Below, piece by piece: positions 40,069 to 64,000 of a stretch of DNA of 64,000 bases. Numbering within the stretch: position 1 is the stretch's first letter; every line of letters starts with the position of its first letter. The position numbers and the translations under genes were made by a program. The notes under the pieces are model-generated. The model was not told the origin of the DNA. It saw only the letters and a program-made list of their open reading frames with translations, and did no database searches. The stretch is taken from NCBI GenBank assembly GCA_947468275.1, contig CANIKO010000001.1, positions 1 through 64,000 on the forward strand, in the 5' to 3' direction. This DNA is from Bacteroidota bacterium (GTDB lineage: Bacteria; Bacteroidota; Bacteroidia; NS11-12g; UBA9320).

Positions 40069-40338
40069 AGTATTTCATTTCCTTGCGGAATCTTTTAAAT
40101 GAAGCTGGTTAAATTTTTATTTCAAAAATTGAACTTACTTCCATCCTTAAATTATTGTGTTTTTAAAAGTCATTCAACTTATAAAAACACGTTTTTTTAG
40201 GAGGCGCAAATATAAAGGAATTTATTTGTGACTATCAATAAAAAAAAACAGCTAAATTTTTGCAACTTTTTTCAACCCTTAATTTATTCTAAGGAATATT
40301 CCCTAATCTTGCCTTATCAAATTTTAAGAAAAAAAGAA

Positions 40339-42993
40339 ATGAGTCAAAATAAGGCATTATATCAAACTATAGATTTAAGGATATATGCTTCTACAGAGTG
40401 GTTGGCCGATAATAAAAAAAAATATCGTACTGTATTTGAATTAGAAGAATGTTCCTATGTGTATTGCGAATTTTCTTTTTATAATTTAAAATTTAAAGAA
40501 GCAGATTGGAGTTTAAAACTTAGAATAGTATGCATTGATAATGAAAATAATGAAATGTGCAATCTTAATTGTGATCGCATTATTGCATTGGATGATAATA
40601 TTATTTATGTGAGAGAAGGATGGGGTACAAAAAATAAAGGCAGTTTTTGGAAACCGGGAATTTATAAATGGCAGGCTATTATTGATGAAACTGTTGTAAT
40701 TGAAAAACCATTTTATATTCAAAATTTTGGCAAGACCAATGAAAATGGTGAGCCGTATTTTAAGATTGAAAATTTAAAGCTTTATGAAGGACCTGATGCC
40801 AATGTAAAGATAAATGACCGTACTTACTATTCGGTTTTTAATTTCAATTATACCCGCTATGTATGGGTGGAGCTGAATGCTAAAAATTTAATTAAAGATG
40901 TTAATTATTGGGCGTGTGAACTAACCTTTAATTTTAGAACAAGTAATTATTTACTCAAAGGCTCCATTTCAAAATTGTTTTTTGTTTATCCTCAGGATAA
41001 CGAATTCTCAGTTACCATTGGATGGGGGTCTGACAAGATAGGTACTTGGGGAAAGGATGATTATATTGTTGACGTATTGTTTATGGATAAATTGCTTTTG
41101 AGCAAAGTATTTACAATAGGGGATGATTATTTAGAAGCAACTGAAGACGATTTTGTGATTCCTGTGTTTGGTGATTTTGAAACTATGGAAAATGTCGTTT
41201 TTGATGATGATTTTGAAACAACTAGCGATGATGCTGGGAAAATTCATCAAACCAATGAAACGGTTGAAGTCATTATGAAGGAATTAGAAGGGTTGATTGG
41301 CTTATCGGATATTAAAAACAAAATTAAAGAGTATAGCAATTATCTTGGATTTATATCACTTCGCAAGGACAGAGGTCTTAAAGAAAAAGAAAAAATCAGT
41401 CTTCATGCTATTTTTCGCGGTAATCCTGGAACCGGTAAAACAACAGTGGCCAGGAAGCTTGGTAAAATTTATCACAGTTTAGGTTTGCTTTCTAAAGGGC
41501 ATGTATACGAAGTAGATAGAGGTGATTTAGTGGCTGAATTTATTGGTCAAACTGCTCCAAAAACGAAAGCAGCTTTGAAAAAGGCCAAGGGAGGCATTTT
41601 ATTTATTGATGAAGCATATTCCTTAGCACGCAAAGACGATGATGCTAAAGATTTTGGAAAGGAAGTTATTGAAATTTTATTAAAAGAATTGTCCGATAAT
41701 GAAGATATTGCCATTATTTGTGCGGGCTATCCTGCAGAAATGGATAACTTTTTAGAATCCAATCCAGGTTTAAAATCAAGATTTACGATGTCCTATGATT
41801 TTCCTGATTATTTGCCGCAAGAACTTATTAAAATAGCCGACTATGCCTGCGAAAGACGCGGAATAAGATTAAATGAAAAGGCCTCGGAATTGCTTTATAA
41901 AAAATTGGTAGAAACCTACCGCGAACGGGACAAGTTTTTTGGAAATGCCAGATTGGTTAATAGCCTTATTGATGAGGCTAAAATGAATTTGGGATTGCGG
42001 GTCATGAATACCCAATTTCCAGAAAAACTCACCCCTGATGAGCTTTCGGTAATAATGCCTGATGATATTGAAAAACTTTCTTTCAAAAAGAAACACCCTA
42101 CAGCAGATATACCAATTGATGAAGATTTATTAAAAGAATCAGTAGGGAAAATCAAGAGAATGATAGGTCTTGAGACCGTAAAAGAGGACATTGATGACTT
42201 AGTGAAGCTAGTGCGTTTTTATAATGAAACAGGTAAGGATGTTCGACAGTCATTTTCACTTCATACTGTTTTTACCGGTAATCCTGGTACAGGAAAAACT
42301 ACTGTAGCTCGTATTTTGGCGCAGATTTACAAAGCATTGGGGATTTTGGAGCGTGGGCATTTAATTGAATGTGACCGTCAAAGTTTAGTGGGAGGATATG
42401 TAGGTCAAACGGCCATTAAAACTGCTGAGATAATAGACAGAGCCATGGGGGGAGTTTTGTTTGTTGATGAAGCTTATTCCTTAACAGAAGGAGGTCAAAG
42501 TGATTTTGGTAAAGAAGCAATTGAAATATTACTGAAACGCATGGAAGACCGACGCGGCGAGTTTATAGTTATTGCCGCTGGATATACAGATAATATGAAG
42601 CGCTTTATCGAATCTAATCCGGGTTTGAAATCAAGATTTGACAGAACCTTTCATTTTGAGGATTTCAAGGCTGCCGAACTACTTGAAATTGCGAATAACC
42701 AGATTTCTGAAAATAATTTAAAACCAGATGAAGGGGCTGAAAAAGAACTGAAGAGAGTCATGGAACTTATGTACGACAGTCGTGATAAGTTTTTTGGTAA
42801 TGGACGAGCCGTCAGAAAACTGGTGGAAGAGATTGTTAGGAATCAGCATTTACGAATGTCTGAAATTGCCGCATCTAAGCGTACTATAGATTTAATATCA
42901 ACGCTTACTATCGAAGATATAAAAGAAATAAATGTAAAAGAGATTATTCAGAAAACCAAAACTACAAGTATTGGATTTCAGCAAAATTCTTAG
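40339..42993 (+). CDS. Twin AAA+ ATPase (CbbX/SpoVK-like) with duplicated N-terminal beta domain
   Basis: 884 residues from ATG 40339; an upstream extension with no leader character is rejected. Residues about 10-130 and 145-275 are two related beta-rich domains. Each has a Y-R/Y-S-V-F strand, a 'YVYCEFSFYNL' / 'YVWVELNAKNL' strand, a '(R/I)GWGT(K)/GWGSDKxG' turn and a 'K(P/D)G/DxYxxxxxxD' strand. Two AAA+ modules follow: Walker A 'GNPGTGKTTVARKLG' (about 360) and 'GNPGTGKTTVARILA' (about 646), Walker B 'GGILFIDEAYSL' and 'GGVLFVDEAYSL', and 'NPGLKSRF' sensor/arginine-finger regions. CbbX-type ATPases remodel protein complexes. The target is unknown. Confidence 0.88.
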   Translation: MSQNKALYQTIDLRIYASTEWLADNKKKYRTVFELEECSYVYCEFSFYNLKFKEADWSLKLRIVCIDNENNEMCNLNCDRIIALDDNIIYVREGWGTKNKGSFWKPGIYKWQAIIDETVVIEKPFYIQNFGKTNENGEPYFKIENLKLYEGPDANVKINDRTYYSVFNFNYTRYVWVELNAKNLIKDVNYWACELTFNFRTSNYLLKGSISKLFFVYPQDNEFSVTIGWGSDKIGTWGKDDYIVDVLFMDKLLLSKVFTIGDDYLEATEDDFVIPVFGDFETMENVVFDDDFETTSDDAGKIHQTNETVEVIMKELEGLIGLSDIKNKIKEYSNYLGFISLRKDRGLKEKEKISLHAIFRGNPGTGKTTVARKLGKIYHSLGLLSKGHVYEVDRGDLVAEFIGQTAPKTKAALKKAKGGILFIDEAYSLARKDDDAKDFGKEVIEILLKELSDNEDIAIICAGYPAEMDNFLESNPGLKSRFTMSYDFPDYLPQELIKIADYACERRGIRLNEKASELLYKKLVETYRERDKFFGNARLVNSLIDEAKMNLGLRVMNTQFPEKLTPDELSVIMPDDIEKLSFKKKHPTADIPIDEDLLKESVGKIKRMIGLETVKEDIDDLVKLVRFYNETGKDVRQSFSLHTVFTGNPGTGKTTVARILAQIYKALGILERGHLIECDRQSLVGGYVGQTAIKTAEIIDRAMGGVLFVDEAYSLTEGGQSDFGKEAIEILLKRMEDRRGEFIVIAAGYTDNMKRFIESNPGLKSRFDRTFHFEDFKAAELLEIANNQISENNLKPDEGAEKELKRVMELMYDSRDKFFGNGRAVRKLVEEIVRNQHLRMSEIAASKRTIDLISTLTIEDIKEINVKEIIQKTKTTSIGFQQNS

Positions 42994-51422: not shown

Positions 51423-53168
51423 ATGAGCCTTATGATAAATCTACATTTCATATTGTTATTACAAAAAAGGTTTATCTCTTTTCTGATACTTTTAACTTTT
51501 TTGTCTCAATTTTCTTTTGGCCAACAAAAAAAGAAACCAGTAAATATTTCAGGGGATATGGGAGTTTATGGAGATTTTTATCACATGAATTCTGATACAT
51601 TGGGAGCTGTAGCACCTCGCAGGCCTGATGCTTTGGGTAGATTAGTTGTAAATGTTTCTATAAATATTAAGGACTTTTCAATGCCAATATCAATGGCTTT
51701 ACCCACCGGGCAATTTGGAGTTATACTGCCCAGTGTTCCTAAAATTCCGAATGCTCCATATCTAAATTTTAAAGAACTTGTAAAAAATCCATTAAACCGC
51801 ATTGGAATTGCTCCAAAATATAAATGGTGTCAAGTTTTATTAGGTTCTCAAATTCCTCACTACTCAGAATTAAGTGTTGGCGATTTGGCAGTGTTTGGGG
51901 CAGGTGTTAATTTAACTCCAGGCAAATTTAGGCTTTCTGTTTTTTCAGGTACTTCTCAAATGGCGGTGCAGCAGGATACTACAAAAAATATACAAGGTAT
52001 TTATGCTAGAAAAATTCATTCAGCCAAAATTGGATTTGGTCATGAGGATTCATCCCACTTTTATTTAATTGGAAGTATGATGAAGGATGATACATCCTCT
52101 TTAAAATTTAAACCCACAACCTTAATGCCTCAAACCGGGATTTTAACAGCCATTGACTTTAGGATTAAATTAAGTAAAAAGTCTTATGTAAAAGGAGAAG
52201 TGGCTGGTTCCGCATTTACAAGAGATATGCGTTCTAAGGAATTGCCTTCTTTTTCGCCATCTCCTCCAAAGGATCTTTTTAATCCAAAGGAATCTAGTCG
52301 ATTTGATTATGCCTCGGTTCTTAGCATTGGCCGTGACGGAAAAAACTTTGGAATTAAGGCAACAGGCCGTTATTATGGTGATGGCTTTGTCCCAATGGGT
52401 TACCCTTTTTTACAAACTGACCGATTGGAGTTAACTGTTGATCCAAGATTTCTGTTGTTTAAAAATAAGATTCAACTTTCTGGTTCTATAGGAATAAGGG
52501 TAAATAACCTTTCTGGAATTAGAGCTACAACAACAACTCAAACCATCGGTTCGGCCAACCTAAATTTACAAGTAACCGAAAATTTATCACTGGCAGGTTC
52601 TTATTCCAACTTTGGATTTAGAAACTCTGTTTTGAACGACACGTTTCGGGTTGAAATGGTTACTGAATCTTGGAGCGTTAGTCCATCCTATAATTTACAG
52701 ACCAAATCAAGTATGCATAATTTCACACTTATGTATGCCCAAAATGTGTTCAATGATTTTAATACAGTTACGGGTAAATTAAACAACAACGATGCCAGCA
52801 ACGGAGCATTTTCATACATGCTTTCCATGTTAAAATCGCCTTTTTCGGCCAATACTTTGATTAGTTATTTTGAAAATAATACTTCCTATGGAAAGCTAAT
52901 GACCAAAGCAGTAAACGTTGGTTTTGGTTACAAATTTTTTAAAAAGAAACTAAGCACAACAGCAGGACTTACTTATGCTGATAATACTTTAGGCGCCACT
53001 TCATCCGGCTCACAAATTATGACTTTACTTGGAGTGAAATATACAGTTAAGAAGAAAATATCATTTGCTCTAAACGGCTCGATAAATCTATTTGAATTTG
53101 GAGACAGCCGCCCGGGTATATCCTATCGCGAAAATTTATTAAGAACCTCTATTACTTATAAATTATAA
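51423..53168 (+). CDS. Outer-membrane beta-barrel-like protein of a surface operon
   Basis: 581 residues (or 578 from ATG 51432). Signal peptide with cleavage near 'FSFGQ'. The mature protein starts 'KKKPVNISGDMGVYGDFYHM' and then shows repeated amphipathic beta strands such as 'FGIKATGRYYGDGFVPMGYP', 'LSLAGSYSNFGFRNSVL' and 'SFALNGSINLFEFGDS'. The last residues 'LLRTSITYKL' end in an aromatic-type strand, as in outer-membrane barrels. No TonB box or OmpA domain. It is 5 bases before the TANFOR-like gene. It may be the outer-membrane partner of the two secreted proteins downstream. Family not recognised. Confidence 0.7.
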   Translation: MSLMINLHFILLLQKRFISFLILLTFLSQFSFGQQKKKPVNISGDMGVYGDFYHMNSDTLGAVAPRRPDALGRLVVNVSINIKDFSMPISMALPTGQFGVILPSVPKIPNAPYLNFKELVKNPLNRIGIAPKYKWCQVLLGSQIPHYSELSVGDLAVFGAGVNLTPGKFRLSVFSGTSQMAVQQDTTKNIQGIYARKIHSAKIGFGHEDSSHFYLIGSMMKDDTSSLKFKPTTLMPQTGILTAIDFRIKLSKKSYVKGEVAGSAFTRDMRSKELPSFSPSPPKDLFNPKESSRFDYASVLSIGRDGKNFGIKATGRYYGDGFVPMGYPFLQTDRLELTVDPRFLLFKNKIQLSGSIGIRVNNLSGIRATTTTQTIGSANLNLQVTENLSLAGSYSNFGFRNSVLNDTFRVEMVTESWSVSPSYNLQTKSSMHNFTLMYAQNVFNDFNTVTGKLNNNDASNGAFSYMLSMLKSPFSANTLISYFENNTSYGKLMTKAVNVGFGYKFFKKKLSTTAGLTYADNTLGATSSGSQIMTLLGVKYTVKKKISFALNGSINLFEFGDSRPGISYRENLLRTSITYKL

Positions 53169-53173
53169 AACTT

Positions 53174-54790
53174 ATGTACAACAAAATTAAATTACTTGTA
53201 GTTGTCTTCCTCCTGTCTTCAGGTGGTATTCTGGCTCAAAACATTCAAGTGCTTATGAGTCCAAAGCCTTCGCCTTATATTTCAGATTGGCAGCAGCGAA
53301 CAGAAACAGTTAAACTTTTAGTAATTAACTCCGGTACAAAGGATATTCAGGTGAAAATAAAAACTGAATTATTTGATGGTAAAGGTGGTTTGGTGGCAAA
53401 TACCGATAACGCAAAAATGCCTGTATTAACAATTCCTCCCGGTAGCACAACCTATAATCCTGAGGATATTATTCCAACAAATGCCGTAAATTACAAAGGT
53501 AACTTAGAAAAAACCGCTATAACCACGGGACGTATACCTGATGATAACTATAGAATTTGTGTTGCCCTTATAGATCCTGTCACAGGTGCCCCGGTTGGAA
53601 CATCAGGGACTGTTTGTAAAACATTTAGTATTGTGGCTTATCAGGCTCCAACGCTTGTTAATCCTAAAGACAAAGAAGCTATTTCTGAATCGGGCATGAA
53701 AGGAATCTTTTTTCGTTGGACGCCAGTTACTCCATCCCCTACAACTATAGTTACTTATAGGTTACAGATTTGGGAGGTAATGCCGGGTCAAGATAATATG
53801 ACAGCTTTAAGAAGTAATCAACCAATTGTAGAAAAAGATTTAAAAGGTATGGTTCAAACTCAATGGCCGGTAGAATTTGCAATGCCAGAACTTGGGAAAA
53901 AATATGTTTGGACAGTTACTCCATTAGACGATCAGGAGCGGAAATTAGTTGATGGACTTGGGTTTGCCCAACCTTTTGTATTTAGTATGCAAACACAGTA
54001 TATTATTCAATTGGATTCTTTAAAAGTTAAGTGCACTAATATTCCCGGCCAGTATACATTTTCATATATTATCACAAATCAAAATAATTCTATAGCCGAT
54101 TTTTTAAATATTAGTATTTATAGCAGTGTTCCGGGTGGAGCAACCATATCTAGTTATACTCCTCCATTAGGTACAACAATAGCGGCATCTGGCGGTACAC
54201 TTTTGGTTACTGGTGTTATAACTGCAAGTAGTTCATTAAGTTTTATTTGTATAAAAACTAAAATTCAGAAACAAGGTGATCCGAACAAAAATGCTGAAGA
54301 TTATTTATGCGACAGTGTTAAAGCTTGCAGATGTGCCGACTGCGATGATAAACATTTTACCTTAACAGCAAATACACCCGCTCAAATAAATTATACGAAT
54401 AATACACTTTCTTATTCTCAGTCAGTTTCAATTACCACAGCCCCTCCTAAAACCATTAAAAATATTAAGGCCGAACTGGTTTATTTTGAAATGACTCCTG
54501 AAAATAACTTTTGTTTACCATGTAATAAAGAAGCCGCTACTTATGGTCATTTTACCAATGGCACCAATAGCCTTACTTGGAGTTCAGGCAATAATCCTCC
54601 ACCTTTAAATATTAATATTACCACGCCCCAATTAACGCCTTGTTGCAGTTCTGTTTTTAGATGGTGCATTCGATACAAAATTGAATTTACCGATTGTACT
54701 ACTTGCAATAAATTGGTTTGTTATGAAAAGAAAAAAGAGGGTTGTAATGACCAGATAAATCATGATCCATTAAATAAAAATGCTAAATAA
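53174..54790 (+). CDS. TANFOR-like secreted protein with eight-cysteine C-terminal module
   Basis: 538 residues with a signal peptide ending 'GGILAQN'. The N-terminal half follows the TANFOR pattern: 'SPKPSPYISDWQQRTETVKL', 'TIPPGSTTYNPEDI', 'GRIPDDNYRICVALIDPVTG' and 'VCKTFSIVAYQAPTLVNPKD'. Next is a fibronectin III-like unit with 'GIFFRWTPVTPSPTT' and 'GKKYVWTVTPLDD'. The C-terminal 150 residues hold eight Cys, CLPC at 447-450, CC at 490-491, Cys498, and C-x2-C-x4-C at 508-516. The same layout ends the next protein. No T9SS type A tail is recognisable. Confidence 0.72.
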   Translation: MYNKIKLLVVVFLLSSGGILAQNIQVLMSPKPSPYISDWQQRTETVKLLVINSGTKDIQVKIKTELFDGKGGLVANTDNAKMPVLTIPPGSTTYNPEDIIPTNAVNYKGNLEKTAITTGRIPDDNYRICVALIDPVTGAPVGTSGTVCKTFSIVAYQAPTLVNPKDKEAISESGMKGIFFRWTPVTPSPTTIVTYRLQIWEVMPGQDNMTALRSNQPIVEKDLKGMVQTQWPVEFAMPELGKKYVWTVTPLDDQERKLVDGLGFAQPFVFSMQTQYIIQLDSLKVKCTNIPGQYTFSYIITNQNNSIADFLNISIYSSVPGGATISSYTPPLGTTIAASGGTLLVTGVITASSSLSFICIKTKIQKQGDPNKNAEDYLCDSVKACRCADCDDKHFTLTANTPAQINYTNNTLSYSQSVSITTAPPKTIKNIKAELVYFEMTPENNFCLPCNKEAATYGHFTNGTNSLTWSSGNNPPPLNINITTPQLTPCCSSVFRWCIRYKIEFTDCTTCNKLVCYEKKKEGCNDQINHDPLNKNAK

Positions 54791-54792
54791 TT

Positions 54793-57700
54793 ATGAAATC
54801 GAAGATTCACGAATACCCATATTTAAAAAATATAATGATGAGTAAAAACTTATTATTTATCATCTTATTTCTGTTGTCTTTTATAAATGCAAAAGCTCAG
54901 AATCAACCTGCCGGTTGTTGTCCAAAATTTGATTTAGTTTCAAACGTAATTCGCCCTTGTGATGATGCCGCCTGTAAGCAGGTTCATGCCAACCCTGATG
55001 GGGGAGCCGGAAGTTCCGGTAAATTATTAATAGCTTGTAAAAATCAACAACAAAGTTATTTGGTAATTCCAAATCTTACCGGGTTTACATACAGTTGGAT
55101 CATTGTTGGTGGAACAATAGCAGCTTCACCTGCAAATCCGGGAGTAATAACTTGGGGAACTAATTCTCAAGGCTTTATTCAAGTAATTGTTTCAAGTGCT
55201 GATGGTAAATGTAGAGATACAATAAGAAGGACAGTGTGTTTAGTGGATGGTCCAACAGCCGGAATAACATTTAGTCCTAATCCTGTTTGTTTATTAACAC
55301 CAGTAAATTTCAGTGGAGCAACATCTCTTGTGGCTTCAGGATATTATTGGGATTTTGGAGATGGAACAACGGATAATGTTCAAAATCCACCTCCACATTA
55401 TTATGCCACAAGTGGTGTCAAAACTGTAATTTTAACAGTTTTCAATCTTATACTAAATAGCAAAGGTGAACTTGTGGAATGTGGTTGTAAAGACACAGCT
55501 ATGGTTAAAATTACTGTAGGAAATAAAAAGGGAATTGATATTCATACGGATGATTGCCGAAAGATGCTTTGCCCGGGGGATACTATAAAATATTGCACTA
55601 GTACAGTTGGATGCACGGGATTAAATTGGGTTGTAAACGGTGGAACAATTATAGGTGCAACTAATTTAACCTGTGTAAAAGTTGTATGGAATATGCCAAG
55701 TACCTACCCAACAACTGTAACCCTAAATGCTACTTGCCCAAATACTTGTGGCAATTCGGCTACTATAAATGTTCCTGTGCTTTATCCTAATTTGCCAATC
55801 CAAGGGCCAACACCAGTATGTCCAAGTTCAACAACTTCATATTCTTTACCAGCCTTACCGGGTACATTTTATAAATGGACATTAAGTGGAGGTGGCACAA
55901 TTGCCGGGGTAGATAGTAATCATAATGTAATAAATATTACTTGGAATTCTTCACCTGGCGGGCCTTATTTTTTGGTTTGCAATTACAAAAATCCTTACAG
56001 CGGATGCAGCGGTTCCAGTACATTTAAAATTTATATAAAACCTAAATTTCAAATTTTCGGACCTTCGCCTATCTGCACCAACGTTACCTCATCTTATTCT
56101 GTAACGGGTGGAGGAAATGCCAATTGGAATCTTACCCCAACTTCGGGTTATACTCCTCCGGGCTCTCCTGCCGGGACATTTTCAAGTGTTTCAAGTATTT
56201 CTATTACATGGAACTTGGCAGGTAGCTACTCTATTTACGCAGTGCCTATTAATGCTGCAAATTATTGTACTCCTTCTGATTTACTTAATGTCCTTGTAAA
56301 TCCAACTCCTATTTTAAATCCCATAGTGGGAAATATAATTGTTTGCCCCACTCAATTATATAGCTATTCCGTGAGCAGTAATGTTGCAGGTGGAAATTTT
56401 GCATGGAGTTTTAGTTTAGGCACAGGAATAATTGCACCATACGGCCCCAATAACTCATCAGCATCTATTCAGTTTACAGGTGCTGGCCCATGGACTTTAC
56501 AGGCTTCGCAAACAGTTGCTGGCTGCACCGGGACAAAAACACTTTCAATAACTAAAGTGCCTGCTCCACCGGCAATTACACTTTCACCGGGTGCCAGCAC
56601 TTGCAGCGGTGGAACTATTACCGCTACTGTGGTAGGAGCAATTCCTCCGGGTGGATATACTTGGAGTGCTACACCAGGTGCAGTACTTACAGGTGGACAA
56701 GGAACGACTTCAGCTACTTTTACAATTAATAGCAATGCCACACTTACAATAACAAGTTGTGGAGGAAGCAGTAATATAAACGTAACAGCAACTGCTGCAA
56801 CTGTTAACATTACAAAAGTTAACGGAGCTTGTTCTGCAACTTTAACCGCCTCACCGGGCGGTGGAACCTACAATTGGTTTTTAAATGGAAGTCCTGTTGG
56901 TTCAGGAAGTCCTTTTACTGTTACCCAAAATGGAACATATGTGTTACAGGCCACTTATCCTGGGCCTTGCATTGCAACTAACCAAATTATAGTAACTGGT
57001 ATTACTCCTGTTGTTGCTACAATTTCAGCTATTGGAAATATTTGCAATGGTGGTTCGGTAACCATGCAGGCTCCTATACCTGCAAATTGTCTTGGAGCTA
57101 CTTTTTTATGGAGTAACGGAGCTACGGGCCCAACAATGACAACAAATTTACAGGGAAGTTATTTTGTAACTGTGAGTTGCAGCAATGGATGCAGCGATGT
57201 GTCGAATGTAATTGTTATAAGTCCTTGTGTTAACGCACCGGGATGCATTCCGGATTTAGTAATCAGCACAAGCAATTGCCCAAATCCAGTTTCTTTAACC
57301 ACAAATATTCCTGCCGGATGCACTCCGGTTTCAACAGCATGGTATTACGGAGATGGATTTGGTGGGTCAACGGGCAATCATCTTTATGCTGATGCCGGAG
57401 CTTATCAGGTATACGCAGTGATGACCTGCAGTAACGGAACAAAGCATTGTGATACAGTGATTGTTAAAGTGCCAATGGTAGATTCATTCACAAGTGTGAT
57501 AAGTTGCGGTGGATCAAATAACTGGACTATCCAATTGCAGGATGCTTCCAGATTTTTAGCTGCTTATGCAGGCTATTCAATTACTTGGTCAACTTCACCC
57601 TGCGCAACGTTGAGTGCTACAAATATACCCAATCCAATATTAACTGTGCCATTTGGTTGTAACCCAACAATTACTCTTACCATCTCAAAAAACGGTTGCA

Positions 57701-59880
57701 CTCTTACCAAATCGTTCACTTTTAATTTTCCAACTACAACATTTTCGATAATAGGTGGACCGAGAGTTTGTAAGGATGCAACAACAATGTTTAACGGTAA
57801 TTTTACCTCTGGGGTTATTTCATATGCTTGGAATTTTGGAGATTTAACTACCGGAGTTACCAATCCGATTTACCATACCTATAATGGAACGCCAAACAAT
57901 CCTACAATTTCTTTAACTATAAAAGATAGGTACGGATGTATTTTCACTACCTCAAAACCTATAACTGTTAAAATTCCAACAGCATTAACAATTACTCCTG
58001 CGCCATTGGTAAAAATATGTCCTGATTGTTTGCCTCCCCTTACTTTAAATACCAATCCTTGGGGCAGTTTTACAGGATTTCAATGGTATCAAAACGGAGC
58101 GGCACTTGGTGGAGCCACAAATTCAACCTATCAATTATGCAATTTTAATGCATCCGGAAATTATACAGTAACAGCAATAAGTAACAACGATACCTGTGCG
58201 GTAAAATCAGATACAGTAATGGTGGTTTATTTACCAAAACCTGTTGCTGATATTCAAGGACAAACCGTCCAGTGTGCCAGCGGAAGTTCACCTTGGACTA
58301 TTGGTGTACAAAATGCCGGAGGTAATAATCCAAACTATACCTATAACTGGACTTGCAACGGACCTGGAGGTGTAACTTTTAGTCCTGATAATCTTCAATA
58401 TTATGCAAGTGTGTCCGTTACACAATTAGGAACGTATCAGTTTATTTTAACGGTAACGGATACTACAGGTTGCGTTGCCAAAGATACTTTCTGTGTTTAT
58501 TTATATCTAAGTCCATCTGTAACCATAGCCCCAACCGGGTATTTATGTGAAGGAATAAATCATACCTATACCGCAACTGCCACCCCAGCAAACCCTAGTT
58601 ATATTTACACTTGGAGCAATGGAGCTAACGGACAAACCATGACTACCGCACAAGCAGGAAGTTATTATGTGATAGTGACGGATCCTGTTAGCGGATGTTC
58701 AGGAATTAGCAATACCGTAATTATTAAAAAACGGCCATATTTAGCATTGTTTCCAATAGGTTGCGATACCTTATGTGATACCGCTAAAATTATCCCACCT
58801 CTGCCTTTAGGCCCGGGCCAAACATACAATGGCGTCTACGTTATAAAATGGTTCGTGGATGGAGTTTATAATTCTACAGGTCCAAGTTTAAGTCTTACAG
58901 GATTAACCCTTGGTCAACACCAAATTACAATTCAGGTAAGTTACCTTAACGATAGTTGTACTACAAAATCAGGCAAATATGAATTATATATAAAAAATTG
59001 TAACTGCAGTTGCAAAGGCAGCAATTGGGGTGAAATAACATTGAATAAAACTGACAATCCTGATATTAAAGCCAATATTGGTGTTGGTAATTCTAAAAAA
59101 CTAGAATGCAAAAAAACGTATGATGTAGTTTGTAATCAAACCTATTTAATAAATGGCAAGTATAAATGTGCTGATTCCACTTGTAACGGCGTTGTTAAAT
59201 ACAAATTGCAACCGCCAACTGGAGGTGCAATTACCGGTAGTTTGCAATTAACCTTTGTTCCAAGTTTACCGGGTATTTATATTTTAACCCTTTATGGCTG
59301 GTGTGGAGATAAAATTTGTGACAGTTGTGTTATCAAGTTTAAAACCGATTGCGACCCAAGTTCTTGCTGTCCTTATGAAATTAAGATAAACCCAAAAAAT
59401 CCAACGTACACTGCAGGTATTAATTCCACTTTGGTAAATAACAATTTCTCAATAACTATTCCGACAACCATTAATATTACTGAGGTCAGAGCGAACGTGG
59501 TGAGTTACACTATTGATGACAATTACAAAAAAGAATGTATGCAATGTGTAAATCTGCCTTTTACTTGGGCAAGTGTGGCTTCAGCTTTAAATATAAATAC
59601 TGCTCCGCCTAAAATTACAATGTATGGTGGTGCAACAGTTTCTTCTTTTAACGGAAGCGGTTCGGGCGTTTATCAAAATCCGAGAGAAATAATTTGGAAC
59701 AATGGAAGCAATTTAAATGCTCCAAATATTACCAATATTGGAATGACATTTATTTTACCTCCCAAACCGGCCATTGATTGTTGCGAATTGAAAGGCAAGA
59801 TTTGTGTGAAGTTTATTTTCACAGATAATAATTGCAAGGAATGTGAAATTATAACTTGCTTTGATTTTAAGATTAAATAG
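54793..59880 (+). CDS. Giant PKD/Ig-like surface protein (1695 residues) with eight-cysteine C-terminal module
   Basis: A signal peptide (starting at an internal Met near residue 15-16: MMSKNLLFIILFLLSFINAK) suggests the real start may be 54835-54838. The body is a string of Ig/PKD-like domains of about 80-90 residues with conserved 'YxWxxx' strands. Clear PKD motifs are 'YYWDFGDGTTD' (about 186), 'WYYGDGFGGSTG' (about 850) and 'WNFGDLTTGVT' (about 1013). It is rich in Thr, Pro, Gly and paired Cys. The C-terminus repeats the module of the previous gene: CMQC 1582-1585, CC 1663-1664, Cys1671, C-x2-C-x4-C 1681-1689. Probably an adhesin or sheath protein; its export route is unknown. It is followed by a strong terminator. 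Confidence 0.85.
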   Translation: MKSKIHEYPYLKNIMMSKNLLFIILFLLSFINAKAQNQPAGCCPKFDLVSNVIRPCDDAACKQVHANPDGGAGSSGKLLIACKNQQQSYLVIPNLTGFTYSWIIVGGTIAASPANPGVITWGTNSQGFIQVIVSSADGKCRDTIRRTVCLVDGPTAGITFSPNPVCLLTPVNFSGATSLVASGYYWDFGDGTTDNVQNPPPHYYATSGVKTVILTVFNLILNSKGELVECGCKDTAMVKITVGNKKGIDIHTDDCRKMLCPGDTIKYCTSTVGCTGLNWVVNGGTIIGATNLTCVKVVWNMPSTYPTTVTLNATCPNTCGNSATINVPVLYPNLPIQGPTPVCPSSTTSYSLPALPGTFYKWTLSGGGTIAGVDSNHNVINITWNSSPGGPYFLVCNYKNPYSGCSGSSTFKIYIKPKFQIFGPSPICTNVTSSYSVTGGGNANWNLTPTSGYTPPGSPAGTFSSVSSISITWNLAGSYSIYAVPINAANYCTPSDLLNVLVNPTPILNPIVGNIIVCPTQLYSYSVSSNVAGGNFAWSFSLGTGIIAPYGPNNSSASIQFTGAGPWTLQASQTVAGCTGTKTLSITKVPAPPAITLSPGASTCSGGTITATVVGAIPPGGYTWSATPGAVLTGGQGTTSATFTINSNATLTITSCGGSSNINVTATAATVNITKVNGACSATLTASPGGGTYNWFLNGSPVGSGSPFTVTQNGTYVLQATYPGPCIATNQIIVTGITPVVATISAIGNICNGGSVTMQAPIPANCLGATFLWSNGATGPTMTTNLQGSYFVTVSCSNGCSDVSNVIVISPCVNAPGCIPDLVISTSNCPNPVSLTTNIPAGCTPVSTAWYYGDGFGGSTGNHLYADAGAYQVYAVMTCSNGTKHCDTVIVKVPMVDSFTSVISCGGSNNWTIQLQDASRFLAAYAGYSITWSTSPCATLSATNIPNPILTVPFGCNPTITLTISKNGCTLTKSFTFNFPTTTFSIIGGPRVCKDATTMFNGNFTSGVISYAWNFGDLTTGVTNPIYHTYNGTPNNPTISLTIKDRYGCIFTTSKPITVKIPTALTITPAPLVKICPDCLPPLTLNTNPWGSFTGFQWYQNGAALGGATNSTYQLCNFNASGNYTVTAISNNDTCAVKSDTVMVVYLPKPVADIQGQTVQCASGSSPWTIGVQNAGGNNPNYTYNWTCNGPGGVTFSPDNLQYYASVSVTQLGTYQFILTVTDTTGCVAKDTFCVYLYLSPSVTIAPTGYLCEGINHTYTATATPANPSYIYTWSNGANGQTMTTAQAGSYYVIVTDPVSGCSGISNTVIIKKRPYLALFPIGCDTLCDTAKIIPPLPLGPGQTYNGVYVIKWFVDGVYNSTGPSLSLTGLTLGQHQITIQVSYLNDSCTTKSGKYELYIKNCNCSCKGSNWGEITLNKTDNPDIKANIGVGNSKKLECKKTYDVVCNQTYLINGKYKCADSTCNGVVKYKLQPPTGGAITGSLQLTFVPSLPGIYILTLYGWCGDKICDSCVIKFKTDCDPSSCCPYEIKINPKNPTYTAGINSTLVNNNFSITIPTTINITEVRANVVSYTIDDNYKKECMQCVNLPFTWASVASALNINTAPPKITMYGGATVSSFNGSGSGVYQNPREIIWNNGSNLNAPNITNIGMTFILPPKPAIDCCELKGKICVKFIFTDNNCKECEIITCFDFKIK

Positions 59881-59900: not shown

Positions 59901-59940
59901 AAAGATGGTCTCAAGATTTCTTGAGACCATCTTTGTTTTT
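59901..59940. terminator. Bidirectional terminator between the surface operon and the cobalamin operon
   Basis: A perfect 15-bp stem (aaagatggtctcaag / cttgagaccatcttt) with a 4-base loop and T-rich flanks on both strands. It overlaps the last two bases of the minus-strand gene that ends at 59939. Confidence 0.92.
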
Positions 59941-61042
59941 ACCACCACAAAAACTCTCCAGGAGTTACACCGGTTTTATAAGATTTTATAAAAATACCTT
60001 TAGGGGTATAGGCCGAAACCTTGCCATGACTTACGAAGTCTGCTGCATCCGATACAAAAAGATTCCCATTCGAAGATTGTACGGTTAGTCCATAAAACGC
60101 CGAGCTTGAAGCCTGGAATATTAAAGGATTGGCTGGTAGACTACTTGCTGATTTAGGGAACCCGAAAATCCCCTGATTTATAAAATACAAGCTATCATTG
60201 GCGGGGTTTTGTTTAAGTTTAATCGGGTTAAAATCAACTTTATCAAATAACCATTGCTTTTCGATTTTTAAAGTATTTGCATTTATGCAAAATAATCCAC
60301 CGATGCGTTTTTTTATAAAATCGCCCGAACATAAAACCCACACTTTTCCATCCTTATCAGATAATAGACTTGAACCACCATAGGCCAAAGAAATGCTATC
60401 TGTGATGAAGTCGGTGGAAGGATTAATAATGTAAAGATAATCGCTGTAGTGATTGGTTACCCAAACTTTATTTTGAAACAAAATCAATTCTTCCGTCCAG
60501 CCTTTGCACTTTATTTCTCCGGTTTTAGTATAGGAATTAGCATCTACAATACTTATTGAATTGGCATACAGGTCAGAAACATACACTTTGCCGGGCTTAA
60601 CTTCCAAAGCATAACGTGGAGATTTCAGATTTTTAATAGTAGCGATTGATTTTGAAGTCTCAGGATTTATGACTTCTATTTTCCCTGAATTGTTTACTAC
60701 CATCCATACATTTTTATTAATCAAACTCATGCTTTGAAAAATATCACCCAAAGGAAGGTTGTTAGTGGTTTTAAAAAGGTCTGCATCTGTGTTTAGCGAA
60801 TCGTTTTCAAGATCAATATAAGTTAGCGAAGCGTTGCCCATTCCAAAAGTTCCTTCGTTAGAAACAAACAAACCTTTGCCTTGGCTTATAGAAGTTGCAT
60901 GTATTTTGGGGTGCTCATCTTTGCAGTTTGTGAATTGGACCACGGAGAAGCAGAGGACGCCAAAAATCATGGATTTTGTATAAAATCTTCTCCAAGTGAT
61001 TTTATTATTTAAATCTCTTTGTTCGGATAATTTTTTCCTCAT
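59939..61042 (-). CDS. Surface lipoprotein beta-propeller, DUF5074/YncE-like (BtuG-like)
   Basis: 367 residues from the ATG that overlaps the upstream stop by four bases (ATGA). A signal anchor and lipobox occur at about residues 25-40 ('MIFGVLCFSVVQFTNC', Cys40). Repeated propeller strands follow: 'GKGLFVSNEGTFGMGNASLT', 'NNSGKIEVINPETSKSIATI', 'KVYVSDLYANSISIVDANSY' and 'KVWVTNHYSDYLYIINPS'. This is the YncE/DUF5074 group. BtuG, a seven-bladed lipoprotein that captures cobalamin for BtuB in Bacteroides, has this fold. Neighbouring TonB receptor and surface protein support that role. If translation begins at the internal Met (60970) the lipobox would be at the usual distance. Confidence 0.78.
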   Translation of the reverse strand: MRKKLSEQRDLNNKITWRRFYTKSMIFGVLCFSVVQFTNCKDEHPKIHATSISQGKGLFVSNEGTFGMGNASLTYIDLENDSLNTDADLFKTTNNLPLGDIFQSMSLINKNVWMVVNNSGKIEVINPETSKSIATIKNLKSPRYALEVKPGKVYVSDLYANSISIVDANSYTKTGEIKCKGWTEELILFQNKVWVTNHYSDYLYIINPSTDFITDSISLAYGGSSLLSDKDGKVWVLCSGDFIKKRIGGLFCINANTLKIEKQWLFDKVDFNPIKLKQNPANDSLYFINQGIFGFPKSASSLPANPLIFQASSSAFYGLTVQSSNGNLFVSDAADFVSHGKVSAYTPKGIFIKSYKTGVTPGEFLWW

Positions 61043-62031
61043 AATTTTAAACCTTTATAAATGCTAGAAACAGACGTTCCGGAAAAATAAATATAAAATA
61101 ATCCGGTTGGTAATTCATTGGCCTCAATTATTGAAGATGAACTACTTATTTCTTTATATAATTTACCAACGGCATCAAAAACTTTTATGGTTGAAATTAG
61201 ATTTTCAGAATGATCAATTCTTAATTTTTGGGATTCTTTAATTGGATTTGGACCATTTATAAAGCAGTTGGAAGCAAGAGTGAAAATACCCGAAATAGCT
61301 TGTTCATGAATAACTCCAATGGCATCCAAATCAAAACCACTCGAGGCAAATGGAGTCGGCCAAGGGTCATTTATTTTTCGCATGGCGGTGTCAAAGCTTG
61401 CAAATTTTGAATTTAAACTTCCGACAACGTCTACAATTTTCACAAATCGAATATTGTTTTTGTTAAGGTCTTTGTAATCCGGTATGTCACTAAAGTCAAA
61501 CGGAGTGCCGTATCCGGCCCTATATTTTCCTGCCAAGTTGTTAATATTCTCAGGTTCTGTATATCCAAAGGCTCCTGTTTGATTTAACGTATCGGTTAAT
61601 GAATGGCACGGAAACTTAAAATAACGCCACCCATCTGAACTCACTTCTACAAAAGCCAGTTCCAAATATCGGTCGTCAAATGTGTTTTCAAAAACTGCAA
61701 AATCCCAACCTTCACCATTTATTAAAGGTTTATAAAATTGACAAATAGCAATACCGCTATCCCCCAAACTTACCACCCCGTTTTCTCCGGCTTTACTAAT
61801 AGCCGATAAGCTATCACCGATGGTGGCATAGCCTGAATCTTTTTGGGCAATATTTTTCCAACCTCTATACACAGTGCATTGTTTAGCCCAGTTTACAAAA
61901 ATGGATGAATCTTTATAAAGAGCGGAACTTCCTGGCTTTCCTGCTGCCGGACCATATTGTGAAAATCCTTTAATTCCCAAAAAGAGGAATAAAAGGATAA
62001 ATACCAGTTCTTTTATTTTATCAAAATTCAC
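61039..62031 (-). CDS. T9SS-sorted surface protein of the TonB-receptor operon
   Basis: 330 residues with a signal peptide ending 'GIKGFSQ'. The body has 'GAAGKPGSSAL'-like start, 'VSLGDSGIAICQFYKPLING' and 'WDFAVFENTFDDRYLELAFV', the pattern of a cell-surface protein found beside BtuB-like receptors in Bacteroidota. A degenerate T9SS domain ends the chain ('INGPNPIKESQKLRIDHSEN', 'TIKVFDAVGKLYKEI', 'LPTGLFYIYF'). It lies 5 bases after the receptor and overlaps the propeller gene. Ligand binding is inferred. Confidence 0.76.
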   Translation of the reverse strand: MNFDKIKELVFILLFLFLGIKGFSQYGPAAGKPGSSALYKDSSIFVNWAKQCTVYRGWKNIAQKDSGYATIGDSLSAISKAGENGVVSLGDSGIAICQFYKPLINGEGWDFAVFENTFDDRYLELAFVEVSSDGWRYFKFPCHSLTDTLNQTGAFGYTEPENINNLAGKYRAGYGTPFDFSDIPDYKDLNKNNIRFVKIVDVVGSLNSKFASFDTAMRKINDPWPTPFASSGFDLDAIGVIHEQAISGIFTLASNCFINGPNPIKESQKLRIDHSENLISTIKVFDAVGKLYKEISSSSSIIEANELPTGLFYIYFSGTSVSSIYKGLKL

Positions 62032-62036
62032 TTAAA

Positions 62037-63956
62037 TCAACGGTTAATAATTACATTAATTCCAAATTCATAATTAATACCTGGCATGGGCCGCCAAACA
62101 ATCGCCTCATAGCCTTTATTAAAAATATTGTTAATCCTTATAAATGCAGTGCTACTAGTTTTTTTATAGTTGAAATAATGATTTATGGCTAAATTTAATA
62201 ACCCATAATGAGGTATCGAATCTAAATTGTCAGAACTGATATAGCGTTTACCAACCCATACCCCTTGAAGCATTATAATGGTATTTTTTATTCCAAAAGC
62301 TATAAAACTCGATGATTTTAAAAATGGAATATAAATTAATTGCTTTTGATAATTAGGGTTGGATGCATCCATATTTTCGGATTTGGTATAGTCCACATTT
62401 AAACCTGCTTTGCCAAAGAGCTTATTGGTTAAACTGATTTTTAAAGTACTTCTTAACTCCAACCCACGACTGTTTACTTTGCCTATATTTACAGGACTCC
62501 ATATTTGTGAAGAAACAGGCTGCCATTGAATCCAGTTGGTTATAAGGCGACTATAACCTGTAAGTGAAGTTGTTAAATAAATGCGTTCATTTTTTTGATT
62601 AAACTCCATACTTAATTCATTGGCCCAGCCTGACTCTGGTTTTAATTGAGGGTTTCCTCCCGGAACCCAATTCAGGTCGTTTAGGGTTGGAATTCGATAA
62701 ACCCGGCTCGTTTGGCCATAAATATCAAGGCTTTTATGAAGGTGTGTTTTAAATCCAAGTGAAGGAATTAATGGTAAAAATTTTGTATCCACCAATTCCA
62801 GTCTCAAGCTGGCTGAAATACTGGTTCTTAGTTTAAGTATCTGATGAAAATGACTCGCCCAAATGGCTATTTGATTTCTATCCGATTCATTTAAGGTAGT
62901 TGTTCCTGTATTTAAAACATTGGCCACCTTAGCTTTGGTAAACGATTGAACAACACCAATGCTTGAAGTTGAATTTTTAAAGCTTTTAAATCGCAACTCA
63001 GCATCATTGGTAATAAATATGGACTTAGAAATGGAATTGATGTCCATCTCTTTTTCAGTATATTTTAAATAATCATTTTGAAAAAGAGAGTGAAATTTCA
63101 AGGTTATTTTTTTAAACGATTTGTCCCATTGCAGCATTGTTTTTTGAATATTGTCAAATTGCCTTGCTGTGCTACTTTCCATTAATAGGGTAGGAGGTAT
63201 TTGCCGATTGGCAAAGGTTCCCCAATAGTTAATTTTAAAAACTCCGGCCTTTTGAGATTGGTAAGAGGTTTGGTGCAAAGCCGAATAATTTACTCCTTGG
63301 GCATTTGTTAAATTTTCTTTAGGATTTCCAGATTCGGCGCGGTTGTTAAATGGATAATTGTTATTTGTTTTTGAATAATACCCTTTGGTGGAATGACTCC
63401 ACTTGTTTTTTGCATAGTTGAGTTTCAAACCTCCTGTGTAGGTTCCAAAACTTCCAACCGTTTGCATCAGTTCGGTTGAAAATCCTTCTTTTTTTAAGGC
63501 AGAATTGTTTAAATTTATTCCGCCGCCAATAGCGCCACTTCCTTGCAGGCTGCCGGCTAACCCCGGTAAAACCGAAACCGCATCAAATAAAAAAGATGGC
63601 ACAAGATTCAAATCACTCAATCCGTTTACAGGGCTGTTGATGGATAATCCATTCCAAGTCATTGCAGTTTGCTGGGCATTTCCTCCTCTAAGTGATGAGG
63701 TGGCCAGTATTCCCGGCCCATAATTGCGAATAACCAAGCCACTTGAGGCATCAAGTAATGAGCCTATTGGCGAAGATTTAAAAATACGTTGTAAAAGGCT
63801 GTCGGGTTTGTCAATTCTGTTTCCTAAGGTGTATACTTCTATACGGTCGGCAGTTATCGTTATTTCCTTTAGATTTTTTTTCCAAAGTGTGTCCTTTTGC
63901 GCTATTGCAGGCAAACATAAAAGGGATAAAAAAGAGATAATTATATATCTGTTCAT
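62037..63956 (-). CDS. TonB-dependent outer-membrane receptor, BtuB-like
   Basis: About 639 residues. ATG 63956 gives a clean signal peptide (MNRYIIISFLSLLCLPAIAQ); the longer frame starting near 63986 is rejected. The plug has 'LKEITITADRIEVY' (TonB box region), 'LLDASSGLVIRNYGPG', 'SSLRGGNAQQTAMTWNGLSI' and 'GSGAIGGGINL'. The barrel follows and ends 'GINYEFGINVIINR'. BtuB-type receptors import cobalamin. The context (propeller lipoprotein, T9SS partner) fits that substrate, though iron-chelate or other substrates are possible. A cobalamin riboswitch, if present, would lie beyond base 64000. Confidence 0.88.
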   Translation of the reverse strand: MNRYIIISFLSLLCLPAIAQKDTLWKKNLKEITITADRIEVYTLGNRIDKPDSLLQRIFKSSPIGSLLDASSGLVIRNYGPGILATSSLRGGNAQQTAMTWNGLSINSPVNGLSDLNLVPSFLFDAVSVLPGLAGSLQGSGAIGGGINLNNSALKKEGFSTELMQTVGSFGTYTGGLKLNYAKNKWSHSTKGYYSKTNNNYPFNNRAESGNPKENLTNAQGVNYSALHQTSYQSQKAGVFKINYWGTFANRQIPPTLLMESSTARQFDNIQKTMLQWDKSFKKITLKFHSLFQNDYLKYTEKEMDINSISKSIFITNDAELRFKSFKNSTSSIGVVQSFTKAKVANVLNTGTTTLNESDRNQIAIWASHFHQILKLRTSISASLRLELVDTKFLPLIPSLGFKTHLHKSLDIYGQTSRVYRIPTLNDLNWVPGGNPQLKPESGWANELSMEFNQKNERIYLTTSLTGYSRLITNWIQWQPVSSQIWSPVNIGKVNSRGLELRSTLKISLTNKLFGKAGLNVDYTKSENMDASNPNYQKQLIYIPFLKSSSFIAFGIKNTIIMLQGVWVGKRYISSDNLDSIPHYGLLNLAINHYFNYKKTSSTAFIRINNIFNKGYEAIVWRPMPGINYEFGINVIINR

Positions 63957-64000
63957 AAATACCGTTGCTTTTATTCCCGAAAGCAAAGCGTTGTTAAATG

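Follow-up and report, generated by a model that had tools for sequence, protein, structure and literature searches.

Three adjacent genes at positions 51,423–59,880 of the window (the whole stretch of 64,000 nucleotides analyzed here) may encode a single surface display unit, in which the barrel protein A partners protein B through a TANFOR region and B couples the long PKD protein C, a reading to which we assign a probability of about one half. A would be a wide outer-membrane barrel and the dedicated partner of B, as anchor or carrier, and would be contacted by the N-terminal TANFOR-like domain of B. B would in turn join C, probably via their homologous C-terminal cysteine modules, with the long PKD stalk of C held at the cell surface through B. 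The module would be a disulfide-stapled beta-sandwich domain and not an export signal, and export of B and C would probably take place by the T9SS, because SprA occurs in each of the 87 genomes with a strong barrel match. The unit of barrel, linker and long surface protein, whose parts apparently work together, recurs in distant relatives. How TANFOR proteins, described as polymorphic toxins with no known sorting tail, exit the cell is left open in the sections of Jana, Salomon and Bosis (2020; PMC7073777) considered here. The barrel gene, located near TANFOR at most strong-barrel loci and in eight genomes fused to it, offers a concrete candidate for a partner of these proteins.

Organization of the operon and its proteins

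All three genes are ORFs of the forward strand, namely A (51,423–53,168, 581 aa), B (53,174–54,790, 538 aa, a secreted protein) and C (54,793–59,880, 1,695 aa or about 1,680 aa, a secreted PKD-repeat protein). The gaps of 5 and 2 bases given by the first-pass annotation hold if the first ATG of C is its start; the start chosen in the congener G005 aligns beside the ATGATG at 54,835/54,838 of the window, so the gap between B and C may be 44–47 bases instead. G005 has the same operon (locus L038) with 89, 87 and 90% identity for A, B and C, respectively, flanking genes kept on both sides, and a cysteine opposite a cysteine at all 17 positions of B and at all 78 of C, which carries 78 in total. 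Five further congeners (one genome only 77% complete) were searched and yielded no match to A or B. The first reading of this locus as an operon with a shared cysteine module is confirmed and its interpretation is partly supported. On the opposite strand, the stretch at 59,939–63,986 encodes a DUF5074/YVTN-type propeller, a TIGR04183-tailed protein and a TonB receptor (nearest to the vitamin B12 type, under cut-off), all of which are also kept in G005.

Protein A has a signal peptide by eye and no curated family match. Its description as barrel-like is borne out by an AlphaFold2 model with about 24–26 barrel strands (pLDDT 86, pTM 0.73). The top structural match in the PDB is MtrB of the Mtr complex (6r2q_B, Z 20.1 over 459 residues, rmsd 5.3), yet with only 11% identity, followed by porins, TonB receptors and ushers (FimD, Z 17.2 over 349 residues). 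No cytochrome family of Pfam or NCBIfam was matched in A, B or C, and the barrel size common to A and MtrB shows no shared function. Pfam and NCBIfam gave no family for A at E ≤ 1, including POTRA or any other extra domain of Pfam; among 37 members of the A family, none matched NCBIfam at E ≤ 0.01, PorP/SprF model included, and one had a single weak match in Pfam at the same threshold. The barrel profile returned four weak matches among PDB sequences, all of them phage proteins. A periplasmic tail of the SprF/PorG type, which is the subject of the T9SS cysteine study as far as its consulted sections go (PMC12635249), was not found on A by eye. Barrel homologues of 810–848 aa (L133, L135–L140, L145 and L148) are extended at the C-terminus by about 250 residues, which by eye look helical and charged.

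Concerning B, three regions can be distinguished. Residues 1–300 (53,174–54,073, forward strand) comprise a signal peptide, seen by eye, and a TANFOR-like region, delimited by profiles, model and fold matches and modelled as two Ig/Fn3-like sandwiches (AlphaFold2 model of B with pLDDT 82.5 and pTM 0.57). Residues 278–385 (54,005–54,328, forward strand) form a DUF11-like middle domain with strands in the model, which matches PF01345 under cut-off (E 0.0097, 16.7 bits). Finally, residues 387–522 (54,332–54,739, forward strand) constitute the eight-cysteine module (profile A2, E 3.1e-31). B had been called TANFOR-like, and the name stands in a qualified form: B itself misses TIGR02542 at E ≤ 1, and in the alignment of B with 35 other rows, 11 of them module-only, 10 do match (best E 2.8e-13), hence the term TANFOR-like. 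The TANFOR profile built here covers residues 3–300 of B, that is, the N-terminal part of a Sec-exported protein, judging by eye from its signal peptide. B could be aligned over most of its length with L088_4, L089_2, L087_3, L087_4 and L191_4 (E 6e-31 to 1e-14). For B, Foldseek and VIA returned generic Ig/Fn3 proteins, and the search of PDB sequences with the TANFOR profile gave nothing useful.

Protein C bears PKD repeats (PKD_4, E 1.5e-18) and has a nearly full-length homologue in L191_3, with 35% identity over 744 aa (E 1e-104) and 28% over another 585. Residues 1405–1522 (59,005–59,358, forward strand) form a pre-module domain that L087_3 and L087_4 also possess, at about 41% identity by blastp (E 3e-21 and 5e-21), and residues 1523–1695 (59,359–59,877, forward strand) are the eight-cysteine module at the extreme C-terminus (profile A2, E 6.7e-45).

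Pairing of the barrel with TANFOR across Bacteroidota

The barrel profile (A3) matched 162 of 395 Bacteroidota genomes, 87 of them at E ≤ 1e-30 (the strong class), and the TANFOR profile (A4) matched 109 of the 395; rows of both profiles came partly from the sampled genomes and linked loci, a mild circularity. Among the matches listed, TANFOR is present in 87 of 87 strong-barrel genomes vs. 22 of the 308 others. It lies within 10 kb of the barrel at no fewer than 96 of the 116 strong-barrel loci, on the same strand in 96 of 96 cases, and within 300 bases downstream at 46 or more of the 116, these counts being lower bounds with at most 3 barrel and 6 TANFOR candidates first scored per genome. 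The pairing counts omit eight further barrel rows of counted genomes, mostly second pieces of split genes, as well as the five weakest listed barrel rows and five listed TANFOR rows. At 20 of the 116 strong-barrel loci no TANFOR was located within 10 kb among the matches listed, and each of these genomes has TANFOR. For the weaker barrel loci, 19 of 21 lacked a nearby TANFOR among the matches listed, and the weak matches may thus represent a different family.

Eight genomes encode TANFOR and the barrel within a single open frame, TANFOR being N-terminal every time. The termini of outer-membrane barrels normally face the periplasm, and with this order in all eight fusions TANFOR could sit inside rather than outside. 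In two of the fused proteins (L087_5 and L088_6) visual inspection showed a charged, coiled-coil-like stretch that lies within the barrel part or precedes it. The association between barrel and TANFOR is a stronger signal than the linkage between module and barrel. The N-terminal TANFOR-like region of B is a better candidate for docking than the module, given the occurrence of TANFOR in all the strong-barrel genomes and the one-frame fusions. No report of this pairing was found in the open-access literature searched; the main text of PMC7073777 has 0 uses of the word "barrel", and TANFOR occurs once in PMC11796102.

Homologues of A, B and C are found side by side in L191, and a third module protein (L191:12662–16120, 1,152 aa, with DUF11/DUF7507) is seen there between the B homologue and the barrel, which indicates that the unit is able to carry more than one. 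In L087_3 and L087_4, a B-like part (TANFOR, middle domain and module) and a C-like part are united in one chain, the C-like parts matching residues 1405–1692 (E 5e-28) and 1375–1692 (E 2e-27) of C, respectively. Natural fusions consequently join TANFOR with the barrel as well as B-like with C-like parts. C has no TANFOR domain, so the proposed contact between B and C draws on their common module, their operon and the fusions in L087.

In the order to which the window belongs, a TANFOR match was present at 11 of 18 other barrel loci fetched, and none was found in the stretch read at the other 7. In ten of those 11, TANFOR is part of a 1,908–2,446-aa protein encoded directly after the barrel, often followed by a gene with Fn3 repeats. 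Such giants, being relatives of the operon, bring up the explanation that we are dealing with a polymorphic toxin system of a divergent TANFOR type, its effector being C or some domain not yet seen, since TANFOR proteins are called polymorphic toxins and their toxin is sometimes encoded by the next gene (PMC7073777, sections considered). We regard this as highly improbable: no toxin domain was matched in B or C (Pfam and NCBIfam, E ≤ 1), the next gene lies on the opposite strand and encodes the DUF5074 propeller, and C ends in the cysteine module.

A cysteine module with and without a T9SS tail

B and C end in exactly the layout that had been reported for them, C-x2-C ... C-C ... C ... C-x2-C-x4-C, formed by C447-x2-C450, C490-C491, C498 and C508-x2-C511-x4-C516 in B and by C1582-x2-C1585, C1663-C1664, C1671 and C1681-x2-C1684-x4-C1689 in C. 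Their C-termini match with a blastp E-value of 3e-4 and a Smith-Waterman score of 84 against a shuffle mean of 40.5; this score was reached by 0 of 1,000 full shuffles and by 1 of 1,000 with the cysteines fixed in place. On this similarity, the two modules are homologous. The proposal of a new module also held after a profile had been built and searched, as the domain recurs and neither Pfam nor NCBIfam has a model for it. None of 19 members matched a known domain of either collection (E ≤ 0.01), and no PDB sequence matched at E ≤ 1. Among 36 aligned copies, many of them from related genomes and with rows gapped at either column set aside, columns 137 and 155 (C498 and C516 in B, C1671 and C1689 in C) both hold cysteine in 23 rows and both lack it in 12, with no row having one alone; for the alternative pair of columns 106 and 145 the counts are 8, 23 and 0, respectively. 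With regard to the disulfide-linked assembly domain that had also been suggested, the pairwise co-variation of the cysteines points to intradomain disulfides, and the module looks like a sturdy building block, not an export tag.

A first module profile, made from two B/C pairs, matched 17 of 395 Bacteroidota genomes (E ≤ 0.01) and the wider profile A2 matched 18 of 395 (E ≤ 0.001). Within the 108 genomes of the window's order only G000 and G005 have the module, apart from a chance match in G004 (E 0.004), which was rejected as it falls in a PKD protein (L065_7); the C-terminus of that protein resembles a type B tail by eye. A restriction of the module to the genus, true among these 108 genomes, is untrue across the phylum.

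The suspected linkage of the module to homologues of A was recovered repeatedly, with barrel, TANFOR-like and module genes at eight loci: the window, L038 (G005), L087 (G247), L088 (G413), L089 (G233), L189, L191 and L192. Some six of these loci can be regarded as well separated, as L038 belongs to the congener of the window and L189 to a close relative of L088. L188 and L189 are labelled Ignavibacteria and L192 a Chitinophagaceae MAG; L188, L190 and L194 hold the same proteins as L088, L087 and L090, respectively. TANFOR and module are located in one protein at seven of the eight loci, and the first module ORF of L192 is cut by the contig end. For 14 of the 18 module genomes, a few with short contigs, there is no barrel within 15 kb of the module among the matches listed. 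Among the same matches, the module of G150 has a TANFOR but no barrel neighbor, and G114, G464 and G496 have neither barrel nor TANFOR.

As the first-pass annotation had stated, B and C are devoid of a type A tail (Por_Secre_tail and TIGR04183 absent at E ≤ 1), and neither matched a known T9SS type B domain at E ≤ 1. Four other secreted proteins of the window had been credited with such tails; this was upheld for the one at 61,039–62,031 (TIGR04183, 23.3 bits with the cut-off at 23), to which our result is confined. Module proteins beside a barrel had Por_Secre_tail in 0 of 12 scanned (Pfam; B, C, L087_3, L087_4, L088_4 via its copy L188_5, L088_5, L089_2, L089_3, L191_3, L191_4, L191_5 and L192_1), vs. 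10 of 12 scanned without a nearby barrel. The match exceeds the Pfam cut-off in L093, L094, L095, L097, L101, L102 and L193 and is under it in L090, L092 and L096; it lies some 300 residues beyond the module, which ends 369–390 residues ahead of the C-terminus in the ten tailed proteins. The two tail-less proteins are a tandem pair of G114 (L091_2 and L091_3) with C-terminal modules. The contrast is marked (Fisher p = 7e-5, shared ancestry ignored), although the events are not independent, as it derives mainly from a single set of CTD-bearing proteins that resemble each other, and L087_3 is seemingly cut short. The scan covered module proteins other than L098_1, L100_0, L118_0 and L119_1; the tails of L118_0 and L098_1 appear type A-like by eye. 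L087_3 (L087:3022–8610) ends inside an apparent LamG domain and is followed by an ORF of the same strand, as if frameshifted, whose end is not type A-like by eye. One G114 protein (L091:1705–3921) starts with about 300 residues resembling a small beta-barrel by eye, followed by an Ig-like part and the module, and gave nothing in Pfam at E ≤ 0.1.

These data bear on the earlier suggestion that barrel A reads the module as a signal for docking or sorting. The C-terminal or nearly C-terminal position of the module in B and C and the lack of a type A tail on all 12 scanned module proteins beside barrels are in line with it. The suggestion is nevertheless unlikely and was not supported by the wider search, given the 14 of 18 module genomes without a listed barrel within 15 kb, the internal and doubled modules of the L087 proteins, and a barrel profile that matches 162 of 395 genomes vs. 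18 for the module. Furthermore, the module stands upstream of Por_Secre_tail in 10 of the 12 scanned proteins without a nearby barrel, and with a type A-like tail downstream the module itself is not the sorting signal. The module is rather a building block of two kinds of surface proteins, those that have a T9SS tail and those that have a barrel as partner, and this family without a curated model allows two surface routes to be compared.

T9SS context and known partner systems

SprA was identified in the genome of the window (2369.8 bits) and in all 86 remaining genomes of the strong-barrel class, hence in 87 of 87, a count that covers the strong class (87 of 162 barrel genomes). It was also present in 43 of 74 control genomes, which had been selected because neither barrel nor TANFOR was matched in them. 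Thirty of the 31 controls without SprA belong to family f20, and apart from f20 and G109 all controls have it (43 of 43). The contrast comes almost wholly from f20 and is therefore phylogenetically confounded, so that the groups cannot be told apart by SprA and the contrast shows hardly more than compatibility with T9SS.

TANFOR (TIGR02542) characterizes secreted Bacteroidota proteins with the domain at their N-terminus; the sections considered of PMC7073777 give PKD proteins, Fn3 proteins and T9SS substrates as neighbors, report T9SS in most such genomes and hypothesize export of TANFOR proteins by it. B is like these proteins in being secreted and in its N-terminal TANFOR region, but it is short, misses TIGR02542, has no toxin domain that we could find and ends in the cysteine module. 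PorP/SprF offers a second comparison, as a dedicated barrel gene clusters there with a surface protein proposed as its anchored cargo (PMC10202324, sections considered). The operon resembles PorP/SprF and its adhesins with a type B CTD in having a dedicated barrel gene clustered with a surface protein. In contrast, A matches no PorP model (NCBIfam, E ≤ 1) and is much longer than PorP, the conserved partner domain here is the N-terminal TANFOR, and B and C are without a type B CTD.

In two-partner secretion of the CdiB/CdiA type, a barrel gene is accompanied by that of a large protein whose N-terminal domain is conserved, and the operon is similar in this respect. A could accordingly be viewed as an exit pore, with TANFOR as the address and the upstream barrel as the translocator of a T9SS-independent Bacteroidota analogue of two-partner secretion. 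TANFOR follows the barrel within 300 bases at 46 or more of the 116 strong-barrel loci, its N-terminal domain is conserved while the downstream part varies between loci, A is close in size to MtrB and to ushers such as FimD, and the TANFOR giants L039_3 and L049_2 have no T9SS tail (NCBIfam, E ≤ 0.05). We consider the exit pore doubtful, as neither POTRA nor another added domain was matched in A, no two-partner domain of Pfam was matched in A or B, and SprA, which an autonomous system would not need, accompanies all 87 strong barrels, a weak objection since SprA is common outside f20.

A display unit of A, B and C remains our preferred reading. By extension, and more tentatively, an unnamed family of wide barrels might handle the TANFOR proteins of Bacteroidota, with TANFOR as an N-terminal address, and form a new export or display route beside PorV and PorP/SprF; the operon of the window would then represent a branch whose TANFOR adaptor is coupled to a long adhesin by a disulfide-stapled module. 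Elsewhere in the window, a large AAA protein with two SpoVK/CbbX-like domains was observed at 40,228–42,993.
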